Positions 30,127 through 40,135 of a stretch of DNA of 53,021 bases are shown here, one piece after another (positions within the stretch are counted from its first letter, which is position 1; every line of letters starts with the position of its first letter). The stretch covers positions 1-53,021 of the forward strand of contig SVOR01000009.1 in the NCBI GenBank assembly GCA_015066295.1. Reading direction: 5' to 3'. Origin of the DNA: Oscillospiraceae bacterium. GTDB taxonomy: Bacteria; Bacillota; Clostridia; Oscillospirales; Acutalibacteraceae. Made by a program: the position numbers and the translations under genes. The notes below the pieces were generated by a model, which had not been told where the DNA came from, did not search any database, and saw nothing but the letters and a program-made list of their open reading frames with translations.

Positions 30127-30159
30127 AAAATCGGTATTCAAAAGAATACCGATTTTTTT
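30125..30159. terminator. Bidirectional terminator between sigE and mgtE
   Basis: Inverted repeat AAAAAATCGGTATTC (30125-30139) with GAATACCGATTTTTT (30144-30158), loop AAAA. Confidence 0.92.
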
Positions 30160-31537
30160 AAATCTTTAATATTAGCGCCGCTATAGTAAAGTAAATTAAA
30201 AGCGAGAAGGCATCAAGAATTGTCGTTACAAGCGGGCTTGCCATAACGGCGGGGTCAAAGCCTAAACGCTTGGCAATAATCGGCAGAGTACAACCAATAA
30301 ATTTTGCAACAACCACAACTAAGAATAGGGTAATGCAAACAACCAACATTTCGGGTATTGCAACCATTGCATCAAAATTATTAAGCAGCAAATAATCAAT
30401 GAGATACAATTTGCCAAAGTTAATAACGCTGAGTGCTAAGCCGCAAATTGCCGAAACGCGAAGCTCTTTCCAAATAACTCGCCATATATCGCTAAATTCA
30501 ACGTCGCCGAGTGACAAAGCACGAATAACCGTAACCGATGCCTGACTACCTGAGTTACCGCCGGTACCCATAAGCATCGGAATAAATACTATGAGTGCGG
30601 CATAGGTGGTTAATTGCAACTCAAATTTTGAAATAATAGCGCCTGTAAATGTGGCCGAAATCATAAGGAACAATAGCCAAGGGATGCGTGCCTTAAAGGT
30701 TTCAAACACACCAGTTCTAAGATAGGGCTTTTCACTTGGCAAAATAGCTGCCATTTTTTCGATATCTTCGGATGCTTCCTCTTGGATAACGTCAATAGCA
30801 TCGTCGACCGTAACAATACCGACAAGTCTATTTTCATTATCAACGACAGGCATTGCGATGTGGTCGTACTTATCGAAAAGCATGGCGACCGATTCCTTAT
30901 CCTCATCGGTTGAAACCGACATAACGTTTGTATCCATTATATCACGGATAATATCGGTCGGTTTAGCAAGAATAAGGGTGCGAAGTGTTACACTACCAAT
31001 CAACACGCGGTCACGTTGGGTGACGTAGCAGGTGTTAATTGTTTCTTTATCAAGCGCGGTCTTGTGTATATGCTCAAGCGCGGCCTCGACGGTAACGTTT
31101 GATTTTAGATTTACAAACTCGGTAGTCATAACACTACCGACGCTGTCCTCAGGATATTTAAGCAGTTCGTTAATATCCTTGCGCATTTCGGGGCTTGCTT
31201 GTTTTAATATTCTGTTGACAACGTTAGCAGGCATTTCTTCAATAATATCTACGGCATCGTCAACGTATAATTCGTTAATAACGTCTTTAAGTTCGCGGTC
31301 AGAGAAGCCTTTGACAAGTAACTCCTGCAGGTCTGATTCCATTTCAACAAAGGTATCAGCCGCTAATTCTTTGGGTAGAAGCCTAAATAATTTCGGTAAA
31401 ATTTCTTCAGGCATATCTTCAAATAATGAAGCAATATCAACACTATTCATAGTTACAAGAATATCTTTAATAGTGCTGAATTTTTTGCTCTCAATAAGTG
31501 TGAGTAGGGTATCACTAATTGTGATATTGTTTTCCAT
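30158..31537 (-). CDS. mgtE: Magnesium transporter MgtE
   Basis: A 459-aa Mg2+ channel. The cytosolic N domain (residues 1-130, with repeated helices such as LFRLLPKELAADTFVEMES) is followed by two CBS domains (about 131-255, VGSVMTTEFVNLKSNVTVEAALEHI; NRLVGIVTVDDAIDVIQEEASED) and five TM helices (MLMGTGGNSGSQASVTVIRALSLGD in the pore region; LGFDPAVMASPLVTTILDAFSLLIYF). The ATG at 31537 follows AAGGAGG. Its 5' leader contains a possible 27-codon ORF at 31595-31678 rather than a recognisable M-box. Confidence 0.95.
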   Translation of the reverse strand: MENNITISDTLLTLIESKKFSTIKDILVTMNSVDIASLFEDMPEEILPKLFRLLPKELAADTFVEMESDLQELLVKGFSDRELKDVINELYVDDAVDIIEEMPANVVNRILKQASPEMRKDINELLKYPEDSVGSVMTTEFVNLKSNVTVEAALEHIHKTALDKETINTCYVTQRDRVLIGSVTLRTLILAKPTDIIRDIMDTNVMSVSTDEDKESVAMLFDKYDHIAMPVVDNENRLVGIVTVDDAIDVIQEEASEDIEKMAAILPSEKPYLRTGVFETFKARIPWLLFLMISATFTGAIISKFELQLTTYAALIVFIPMLMGTGGNSGSQASVTVIRALSLGDVEFSDIWRVIWKELRVSAICGLALSVINFGKLYLIDYLLLNNFDAMVAIPEMLVVCITLFLVVVVAKFIGCTLPIIAKRLGFDPAVMASPLVTTILDAFSLLIYFTIAALILKI

Positions 31538-31594
31538 AGTCTTACCTCCTTAAAAAATTTGCAGGGAACGGAAGTAAAACACATCTTACGGGGT

Positions 31595-31678
31595 TTATAA
31601 ATCAAACAGACGCAATTTTAAGGTCTGCAATGTAAAATTTCGCCCCAAAGGTGTGATATTACCACTGTCTGCGTCCAT
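31595..31678 (-). CDS. Possible 27-aa leader peptide of mgtE
   Basis: On the mgtE transcript, ATG at 31678 is preceded by AGAGGTG with 7-base spacing and begins a 27-codon frame ending at TAA (31595-31597), 57 bases before mgtE. The peptide starts MDADSGNITP and ends LKLRLFDL. An acidic N terminus close to a proline and a leucine- and basic-rich end recall Mg2+-sensing leader peptides such as MgtL in Salmonella, where low Mg2+ destabilises ribosomes on acidic-proline stretches. Its RNA also allows alternative pairings: GACGCA (31669-31674) or CAGAC (two copies) with the TGCGTCTG segment near 31607-31614. Function is inference; no M-box (ykoK) signature was found. Confidence 0.5.
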   Translation of the reverse strand: MDADSGNITPLGRNFTLQTLKLRLFDL

Positions 31679-31721
31679 TTAATTTCACCTCTTGTTATAA
31701 AATTTGGCAAATGCCTATATT

Positions 31722-31750
31722 ATCTTAACATTATGGCATTTGAGAGTCAA
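31722..31750 (-). promoter_or_regulatory. mgtE promoter with flanking inverted repeat
   Basis: On the minus strand, TTGACT (31750-31745) and TAAGAT (31727-31722) are 17 bases apart. A 7-bp inverted repeat AAATGCC (31709-31715) and GGCATTT (31735-31741) brackets the -10 region and could be an operator. The predicted transcript starts near 31714 and holds the leader ORF. Confidence 0.65.
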
Positions 31751-31797: not shown

Positions 31798-31817
31798 CAT
31801 CTTATATTTTAAATACT

Positions 31818-32079
31818 GTGATGGAATTATGCTATTTATAGTTTGCTTTCAGAGAGTTATCGTTTGGTGCGAGATAACACAAATTTAAATTAGCAGTCTC
31901 ATTCCGGAGTAGAGCATTGAAGAACCTTTGGTTTGGTAGATTGCTACGGATGCCCCGTTATCATGGCTTTGGACTTGTTAGAGTCTTAATGAGTGACCGC
32001 TTGTGCGGTAATCAGGGTGGTACCACGGATAAATTATTCGTCCCTGAGATTGCTTTTATGCAGTCTCGGGGATTTTTTA
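31818..32079 (+). promoter_or_regulatory. T-box riboswitch, specifier read as CUC (Leu)
   Basis: Stem I base GGAA (31823-31826) pairs with UUCC (31902-31905) and GCUA (31831-31834) with UAGC (31891-31894), leaving UUAU on the 5' side and AGU-CUC-A on the 3' side. By the usual layout (three-base loop-E part, specifier, purine) the specifier is CUC at 31898-31900, for leucine. The upper stem has AGAGAG and GGTG. The antitermination bulge is AGGGTGGTACCACGG at 32014-32028, whose T pairs with discriminator A. A terminator (TCCCTGAGA with TCTCGGGGA, 32041-32072, plus T run) follows. The loop-E sequence is atypical, so the codon assignment is probable rather than certain. Confidence 0.8.
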
Positions 32080-32117: not shown

Positions 32118-33509
32118 ATGAAAATCAGAATCGCAGACAGAACCTTGTGTCGCGCAGAAAACGCTTTTACATTTAAGGAGAAAATTGAGATTGCGCGTCA
32201 ACTTTATAAGCTAAACGTTGACGTTATTGAATTATCTGAAATTGTGAACATTAAGGCAGACACACTTCTTGTTAAAACTATATCCTCATTTGTTAAGGAT
32301 ACTGTTTTGTCTGTTGCCACCGGTCTTACGGTTGATGGCGTTAATAATGCTGCTGAAGCACTTGGCGGCGCAAAGAAGCCTCGCCTTCGTATTGAGGCAC
32401 CCGTTTCAACCGTTGGTATGGAGTATGTTTGTCATAAGAAAGCCCCCGCAATGCTCGAGCTTGTTAAAAAGCTAATTATTGCCGCTAAAGAAAAAATTGA
32501 TGACGTTGAGCTTTGCTTGCTTGATGCTACCCGTGCTGAAAAAGACGTTATAGCAGAAATGTTTTCAGTAGCTAAGGAGAATGGTGTTACCACTATAACC
32601 TTGTGTGATAATGCTGCCGAAATGTTGCCCGATGAGTTTTCGGCCTTTGTAAAGGAAATGACCGATTCTATTAACGACACCAATATTTCGGTTGGTGTTA
32701 TGTGTGAAAATAAAAACGGTCTTGCCGCAGCAAATACCGTTATGTCGATTAAAAAAGGTGTTAACACTATTAAAACCGATATTGACGGCAACATTTCTTC
32801 GGTTATGACCATAGGTTCAATAATTAAAAATGCAGGTCAAAACTACGGTTTTGAGTCTACTCTTAAATTGACCGAGCTTAACAGAATTTATAATCAGATT
32901 AACTGGATAATCGGTAATTCAAAAAATCAAAAGAATATTGTATCCTCTGCTGATGCAGATAATAACGAAGTTGTACTCAGCAATAAGGATACCGCACAAA
33001 CCGTTAGTTCTGCTGTTTATAAGCTTGGCTACGATTTAAGCGAAGAAGATAATGCTAAGGTTTACGAGGAATTTTTACGTGTTACTGAGAAGAAAAATGT
33101 TACGGTTAAAGAGCTTGATGCAATTGTTGCAAGCGTAGCTTTACAGGTGCCTACTACCTACAAGTTAATCAGCTATTTGGTTAACAACGGTAATATCATC
33201 TCTGCAACTGCACAAATTACACTCGAAATGGACGGCAAAGAATTGCAGGGTGTTAGCATTGGCGACGGTCCTATTGATGCTGCATTTTTGGCTATTGAGC
33301 AGATTATCGGTCACCGCTATGAATTGGATGATTTCCAAATTCAGTCGGTAACCGAAGGTACCGAGGCTATGGGCTCAGCTGTCGTGAAATTACGCTCTGG
33401 CGGTAAGCTTTATTCGGGTAACGGTATTTCAACCGATATTATTGGCGCCGCAATTAAAGCATATCTTGCTGCCGTAAACAAGATTGTTTACGAGGAGGTT
33501 AATATATGA
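32118..33509 (+). CDS. LeuA-like protein: degenerate isopropylmalate synthase fold with intact LeuA allosteric domain
   Basis: A 463-aa protein. The N-terminal 270 residues follow the HMGL-like TIM barrel of 2-isopropylmalate synthase by position (IEIARQLYKLNVDVIE, KPRLRIEAPVSTVGMEY, LCLLDATRAEKDVIAEM), but the catalytic signatures are gone: DTTLRDGEQ is RTLCRAENA, the metal HxHND segment is MCENKNG and the ERAGN part is lost. The C terminus (about residues 345-460, YLVNNGNIISATAQITLEMDGKELQGVSIGDGPIDAAF to AVNKIVYEE) keeps the leucine-binding dimerisation domain. It is under a Leu T-box. It may be a leucine sensor, a partner of another enzyme or a changed-function enzyme; canonical LeuA activity is unlikely. 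Confidence 0.75.
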   Translation: MKIRIADRTLCRAENAFTFKEKIEIARQLYKLNVDVIELSEIVNIKADTLLVKTISSFVKDTVLSVATGLTVDGVNNAAEALGGAKKPRLRIEAPVSTVGMEYVCHKKAPAMLELVKKLIIAAKEKIDDVELCLLDATRAEKDVIAEMFSVAKENGVTTITLCDNAAEMLPDEFSAFVKEMTDSINDTNISVGVMCENKNGLAAANTVMSIKKGVNTIKTDIDGNISSVMTIGSIIKNAGQNYGFESTLKLTELNRIYNQINWIIGNSKNQKNIVSSADADNNEVVLSNKDTAQTVSSAVYKLGYDLSEEDNAKVYEEFLRVTEKKNVTVKELDAIVASVALQVPTTYKLISYLVNNGNIISATAQITLEMDGKELQGVSIGDGPIDAAFLAIEQIIGHRYELDDFQIQSVTEGTEAMGSAVVKLRSGGKLYSGNGISTDIIGAAIKAYLAAVNKIVYEEVNI

Positions 33510-36873: not shown

Positions 36874-36880
36874 CTTTGAA

Positions 36881-37098
36881 GTGATAGAGGTGCGTTTGAT
36901 TATTAGTAATCGCGGTGTATAAGCTTGGCAAGCGTTACCGCAATGAAAGGAATCGGCGCCGAAGGCGGTTGTTGCCAACAATCGTACTGGCAAAACGGGT
37001 TAATACCTGTTTTGTTGTCGCAGTTTTCTGCGGAGTGCTATCTGCTTAACATTTTTTGTTTTTGGCGGATAGTCGTTTTGCGACTATCCTTTTTTTAA
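36881..37098 (+). promoter_or_regulatory. Lysine riboswitch with terminator platform
   Basis: The aptamer runs from GTGATAGAGGTGCG (36881) to GGAGTGCTATC (37042), the L-box signature; internal GGCGCCGAAGGCGG and CTGG...CCTG segments match lysine riboswitches. P1 is GATAG (36883-36887) with CTATC (37038-37042). The antiterminator pairs CTATCTGC (37038-37045) with GCGGATAG (37065-37072); the terminator pairs GGATAGTCG (37067-37075) with CGACTATCC (37081-37089) and ends in a T run. Lysine binding closes P1, frees the terminator and stops transcription of lysC. Confidence 0.93.
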
Positions 37099-39846: not shown

Positions 39847-39864
39847 TTTTAAAAATTTTCAAAA

Positions 39865-40135
39865 GCGTTGAAGAAGAGTTATCCTTTATGATGTTTTTCA
39901 GAGAATTGGCGTTTGGTGCGAGCCAATAAAACTAATTTTGGATATGTAGCTTCTGAGCCGAAGGGAAGAACGTCTTATACTTAGATTAGTAGAACCCTTT
40001 CGTGATTGCTGCGTAAAGGCATAGGATTTGACAGAATCCGAGAGTGGCGGTTTAAAACTGCAATTTGAGTGGTACCGCGGGTTATGATTTTTAACTCGTC
40101 TCAAAGATTTTCTGCGTCTTTGAGGCGAGTTTTTC
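39865..40135 (+). promoter_or_regulatory. T-box riboswitch, specifier read as GUA (Val)
   Basis: Stem I base AGAAG (39872-39876) pairs with CTTCT (39950-39954); AGTT (39877-39880) is the loop-E side; ATCC (39881-39884) pairs with GGAT (39940-39943). Counting back from CTTC, G-[GTA] gives specifier GUA (39946-39948) for valine, with the purine G at 39949. The upper stem has CAGAGA and GGTG. The T-box core GAGTGGTACCGCGG is at 40067-40080, with T for discriminator A. The terminator ACTCGTCTCAAAG (40094-40106) / CTTTGAGGCGAGT (40118-40130) plus T run follows. The frame reading could be off by one or two bases. Confidence 0.8.

Follow-up and report, generated by a model that had tools for sequence, protein, structure and literature searches.

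A conserved leader peptide with competing RNA helices upstream of the magnesium transporter gene mgtE in Clostridia

The window analysed in this study, that is, the whole 53-kb stretch of DNA, contains the Mg2+ transporter gene mgtE on the minus strand, preceded by a short leader ORF whose end is separated from mgtE by 57 nt. The main features of the locus are as follows:
30158-31537, minus strand: mgtE, the regulated gene, encoding a Mg2+ transporter with MgtE_N, CBS and MgtE domains (PF01769, PF03448, CBS).
31595-31678, minus strand: leader ORF of 27 codons, reading MDADSGNITPLGRNFTLQTLKLRLFDL and a stop codon (ORF list, peptide family and frame evidence).
31686-31692, minus strand: leader Shine-Dalgarno (SD) sequence AGAGGTG, kept in relatives.
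31722-31750, minus strand: likely promoter of leader and mgtE, TTGACT and TAAGAT separated by 17 nt, with TG ahead of the -10 box.

The original prediction had proposed a 27-codon ORF with its own SD in the mgtE leader, and the ORF, the SD AAGAGGTG directly preceding it and the downstream mgtE were all found in place. The promoter boxes match at 9 of 12 positions, which is weak evidence alone (4 sites against 3.0 expected in shuffled sequences), and similar boxes are also present in two relatives (L005 and L006). The ORF by itself is uninformative because 86 ORFs of at least 20 amino acids overlap the surrounding 6 kb. It had also been claimed that the ORF stands in place of an M-box, and a divergent M-box had been named as one of the findings that would speak against the peptide. 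No M-box was detected at the Rfam gathering threshold anywhere in the 53-kb window, a relaxed scan of the mgtE leader gave no credible match, and a divergent M-box was rejected on the basis of both scans; other relatives use an M-box in that place. The RNA elements identified in the window were two T-boxes, a lysine riboswitch (36877-37048, plus strand) and a tRNA. One T-box (31809-32048, plus strand) precedes a gene (32118-33509) that resembles 2-isopropylmalate synthase, has HMGL-like and LeuA_dimer domains and is divergent from mgtE, and the other (39859-40106, plus strand) is located elsewhere in the window.

Orthologues of mgtE were gathered from 60 relatives, 394 genomes of the order and 80 named records, and the regions upstream of them were read. 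Most orthologues are preceded by a short ORF behind a purine-rich SD, with an N-terminus of the form MDA[G/D]S[S/T]xGT that is usually followed by GR or Pro, giving the family consensus MDA[G/D]S[S/T]xGTx(P)xGR. The same start, N-terminal peptide and position before mgtE recur in dozens of genomes, including Ruminococcus bromii ATCC 27255 (L133), many Oscillospiraceae and Ruminococcaceae metagenome-assembled genomes and some Lachnospiraceae (L070, L087, L108 and L138). In the closest relative (L005, with an MgtE 93% identical), codons 1-13 differ by one change, and the later codons diverge with frame and length kept. The leader was found upstream of 85 of the 131 distinct mgtE loci, some of the calls beyond the automatic list being made by eye. 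An M-box was present at 17 loci, alone at 12 and in tandem with the leader at 5, and the remaining 34 loci carried neither element, so the leader is not the sole solution for mgtE. In Oscillibacter-type genomes the M-box occupies the place of the leader. A strictly M-box-exclusive distribution of the leader was rejected, as five loci (L026, L053 with its copy L116, L070, L108 and L132) carry both elements before one mgtE. Upstream of mgtE at L070, the M-box and the leader ORF are separated by a Clostridiales-1 RNA (RF01699, positions 1124-1281). At L055 and L130 the leader ORF apparently runs across the mgtE start, with no stop before mgtE.

The specificity of the leader for mgtE was examined by a gene-blind search with two DNA patterns of the leader beginning, chosen without reference to the downstream gene and applied to genomes of the order (295 and 345) and of the class (291). 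Most matches lay, by their coordinates, directly upstream of known mgtE places, and the remainder were inspected singly. All matches that combine an SD with a short ORF of leader type directly precede mgtE; two of these come from other families of the class (L172 and L174). Four matches located inside or across unrelated ORFs (L141, L152, L170 and L171) and one with no SD and a broken motif frame (L173) were discarded as chance, and the reversed-pattern controls returned 0, 1 and 0 matches. The strict patterns recover the family only partly (16/295 and 16/345 genomes of the order) because the SD spacing and codons 4-9 vary; the second pattern, used on the 345 genomes, misses even the divergent codons of the window's own leader. 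In the genome of the window, the strict pattern search matched only the leader itself and no further copies. A search confined to the open-access literature turned up no account of an mgtE leader peptide in Clostridia.

Several lines of evidence strongly support reading of the leader in frame. The motif GGNCGA occupies one frame in 32/32 cases and GNAGTA in 65/65, at distances from the AUG that vary from 6 to 40 nt. When 57 leaders are aligned, all gaps measure 3 or 6 nt, each of the seven codons 2-8 varies most at its third position, and Ala3 is encoded by GCA, GCT, GCG and GCC. Over codons 2-13 of 23 disjoint pairs, 43% of the changes are synonymous, against 34 ± 3% when those substitutions are placed at random (p 0.006). 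This excess and the frame data together are moderate evidence, drawn from comparison of sequences, for selection on the leader peptide. The comparison across relatives called for at the outset bore out the ORF, which is conserved with frame-preserving changes and a synonymous excess. The leader ORF is genuine and very probably functional. The suggestion of a chance ORF in an untranslated leader draws on the commonness of ORFs of this length and has next to no probability, because all the conservation evidence opposes it; it was rejected on the peptide family, the one-frame motifs and the co-variation of helices described below.

An arginine codon is conserved within this frame.
31640-31642, minus strand: conserved in-frame CGA Arg codon, codon 13 (in-frame motif and CGA count in leaders).
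Arg after Gly or Pro is encoded by CGA in 38 of 43 leader cases (88%), whatever follows, and CGA accounts for 5% of the Arg codons of mgtE. The typed tRNA-Arg genes of the genome carry the anticodons TCT, CCG, ACG and CCT (a partial gene at a contig end was left out). Since no tRNA-Arg with anticodon TCG was present among the typed genes, CGA should be read only via inosine-A wobble by tRNA-Arg(ACG), as is usual in bacteria (PMC3711424). Either CGA at codons 9-16 or Pro at codons 9-14 was found in 55/58 leaders, and Pro replaces CGA in 12 of the 15 leaders without CGA at codons 11-14, although the latter test was post hoc (p 0.015). The rare, near-invariant CGA codon and the AGT codons for Ser might suggest an amino-acid or tRNA-charging attenuator unrelated to Mg2+. 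We regard this explanation as highly improbable: the leader has no run of a single amino acid, the controlled gene is a Mg2+ transporter in all cases found, and some loci carry an M-box in tandem.

Pairing within the leader was analysed using partner-swap tests rather than a covariance model, because loop lengths vary too much for a whole-leader MAFFT alignment. For 61 non-redundant leaders, the best duplex that fixed segments of one leader can form was set against those formed by segments taken from different leaders. Three helices were identified, with arms in the window as follows:
31670-31685, minus strand: H1 5' arm, leader start codon and codons 2-3 (co-variation z -16.7, pair types, minimum-energy fold).
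31599-31614, minus strand: H1 3' arm, final codons of the leader ORF (co-variation, pair types, minimum-energy fold).
31643-31669, minus strand: H2 5' arm (anti-anti-SD), leader codons 4-12 (co-variation z -11.0, pair types).
31567-31593, minus strand: H2 3' arm, containing the anti-SD (co-variation, pair types).
31570-31580, minus strand: H3 anti-SD arm, GTTTTACTTCC (minimum-energy fold, co-variation z -10.5).
31539-31549, minus strand: H3 SD arm, GGAGGTAAGAC, the mgtE Shine-Dalgarno (minimum-energy fold, co-variation, pair types).

In these 61 leaders, H1, between the leader start and the ORF end, averaged -23.3 for own and -16.5 for swapped partners (z -16.7); H2, between ORF codons 4-16 and the stretch before mgtE, -23.7 and -18.8 (z -11.0); and H3, between the stretch before mgtE and the mgtE SD, -18.9 and -14.9 (z -10.5). 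Base composition does not cause these signals because the four control segment pairs were flat (z -0.6 to +1.7). H1 shows all standard pair types at several positions and masks the SD and AUG of the leader itself, spanning -10 to +13 around the AUG. H3 joins the anti-SD to the mgtE SD, and the competing helix H2 draws its 5' arm from about codons 4-15 of the leader ORF. Both helices use the same anti-SD nucleotides (median 12 shared, and at least 4 in 58 of 61 leaders), and thus they are mutually exclusive; H1 and H2 cross. The minimum-energy fold of the window leader contains H1 and H3 together, and single-sequence folding would have missed the switch because this fold is only weakly better than shuffled sequences (z -1.35). 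Two competing pairings had been predicted. GACGCA/TGCGTC turned out to be the core of the conserved, co-varying H1, whereas CAGAC/GTCTG pairs these arms in an overlapping register and was discarded as the conserved one. The main competition, in which the ORF core and the mgtE SD contend for one anti-SD, was absent from the original prediction. The leucine/basic end of the peptide (LKLRLFDL), also offered as a signature, varies among leaders; the variable C-terminal part including it looks like a by-product of H1 pairing.

Constraint on the RNA is also plain. Serine in the leader is encoded by AGT in 55% of cases, against 9% in mgtE, a bias that fits the SD-mimic required for H2, and because of this strong codon bias, conservation of the leader lies partly at the RNA or codon level and not in the peptide. 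An RNA-only sensor, in which the leader is a riboswitch for Mg2+ or another ligand and the ORF is incidental, would agree with the AGT and CGA bias at the nucleotide level and with the three strongly co-varying helices, and the crossing of H1 and H2 could be a Mg2+-dependent pseudoknot. Such a sensor is nonetheless very unlikely, as the motifs keep one frame at varying distances from the AUG, the indels are triplets, synonymous changes are in excess, and the start, SD and ORF are kept. Moreover, a Mg2+-stabilised H2 would turn the importer on at high Mg2+, which is the wrong direction.

The leader is probably a translation-controlled leader-peptide attenuator of mgtE, in which failure of leader translation at low Mg2+ would turn mgtE on; this reading is built on sequence comparison. 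A ribosome translating the leader during transcription would open H1 and occupy the H2 arm, where it would be detained by a slow codon, CGA or Pro, among codons 9-14. With this arm occupied, the anti-SD would pair with the mgtE SD in H3 and mgtE would be off. If leader translation aborts early or never starts, as is expected at low Mg2+, H2 would form before the mgtE SD emerges, and the SD would be left free and mgtE on. The SD trap would be replaced by an intrinsic terminator in a few relatives; terminators of this kind were read from the sequence directly before mgtE at L016, L029 and L031. We infer the direction of control from this arrangement. Most of the H2 arm would be covered while a ribosome waits at codon 13, and this covering may be the purpose of CGA.

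The opposite direction would apply if ribosome arrest within the leader, whether at CGA or Pro codons or through a ligand-dependent nascent peptide, freed the mgtE SD, with Mg2+ or a different cue as the signal. In erm-type attenuators, antibiotic-induced arrest turns the gene on, and the mgtE leader resembles them in that leader ORF translation would decide whether a downstream SD is masked, yet its likely direction is opposite. Arrest of this type would be in keeping with the conserved N-terminal peptide and with the CGA found in frame at codons 11-14 in most leaders, or the Pro that takes its place, and with the ribosome at codon 13, codons 4-6 behind it would be left uncovered and able to reach the anti-SD. 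This explanation is unlikely, however, because the stalled ribosome would cover most of the H2 arm and favour H3 and the off state, and the Pro enrichment is the post hoc result given above.

Under the attenuator reading in which leader translation keeps mgtE off, Mg2+ is the likely signal, as suggested by the exclusive link to mgtE, the M-box in the same place and the tandem of M-box and leader. A point against is that the peptide is not of the typical ribosome-destabilising kind, with one conserved acidic residue and little Pro near the start. The acidic start that had been predicted is present (Asp or Glu at codon 2 in 56/58 leaders), but a second acidic residue occurs at codon 4 in just 10/58. 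As a family-wide signature the proposed combination of acidic residues and proline fails, since Pro takes up only 5 of 406 positions in codons 2-8; it is commoner at codons 9-14. With MDAD, acidic at residues 2 and 4, the window's peptide is among the more MgtL-like members of the family. More tentatively, the leader may represent a Mg2+ sensor of a new class, whose sensing element is weak decoding and not an acidic or proline-rich peptide. The near-invariant CGA and the MDA[G/D]SS start would then set the position of the ribosome when the mgtE switch is made, and translation speed or drop-off at low Mg2+ would control a third family of Mg2+ transporters.

Mg2+-responsive leader peptides have been described for MgtA and CorA of enterobacteria (PMC11552253, PMC11282234). 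Efficient translation of the uORF represses the transporter in both the MgtL and CorL systems (PMC11552253, PMC11282234), and acidic residues cause ribosome drop-off (PMC11282234). The mgtE leader shares with MgtL (mgtA; Salmonella and E. coli) a short uORF immediately ahead of the gene for a Mg2+ transporter, as judged by position, gene and frame evidence, an acidic codon 2 and two exclusive RNA folds, here H2 and H3, whose coupling to uORF translation would parallel the repression reported for MgtL. MgtL acts on the P-type ATPase MgtA, using Rho in Salmonella, whereas the mgtE leader would act via SD masking. In addition, the EPDP motif of MgtL supplies prolines and acidic residues at positions 2 and 4; the mgtE leader conserves MDA[G/D]SSxGT together with a CGA codon and usually has a single acidic residue and no Pro near its start, and closely spaced acidic residues with N-terminal prolines are not a feature of it. 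CorL (corA; Enterobacteria) has a uORF in a stem, a conserved N-terminus, few acidic or Pro residues and expression inverse to corA (PMC11552253); compared by description and not by sequence, it differs in acting on CorA, not MgtE, and in being Rho-dependent. The prediction of a leader peptide whose RNA pairings compete and can control mgtE is supported by the conserved peptide family and the co-variation of H1-H3, and the leader is similar in build to MgtL and CorL. The mgtE leader resembles both systems, with translation apparently deciding which fold forms and whether mgtE is made, but with a peptide, an RNA switch and a transporter of its own.

A widespread mgtE leader family in gut Clostridia would mean a small-ORF magnesium gauge for a third transporter family. 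Such a gauge would have arisen in a distant phylum, where it exchanges with the M-box or stands in tandem with it, and the in-frame codon signature would offer a direct handle on the sensing of an ion by the ribosome. The M-box riboswitch (RF00380) precedes mgtE in relatives, some of which match its covariance model in the mgtE leader, replacing the leader or in tandem with it; it is absent from the window, whose leader contains an ORF and lacks a matching aptamer. The Mbox-uORF platform of M. tuberculosis (PMC12810186) similarly combines competition among SD, anti-SD and anti-anti-SD, Mg2+ control and a conserved uORF; there, the M-box senses and the uORF is the target, whereas the leader in the window stands alone. 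The mgtE motif SRC-65-1 (PMC11109978) is also a candidate structured RNA before mgtE, but it was reported only in Thioalkalivibrio, as a riboswitch candidate and not a uORF, and is set apart by description. Finally, a hairpin of the form AAACCYYGTC-loop-GACRGGGTTT was observed within about 40 nt after the promoter at seven mgtE loci without leader ORF or M-box (L036, L060, L063, L074, L076, L090 and L124), and it is possibly another short control element.
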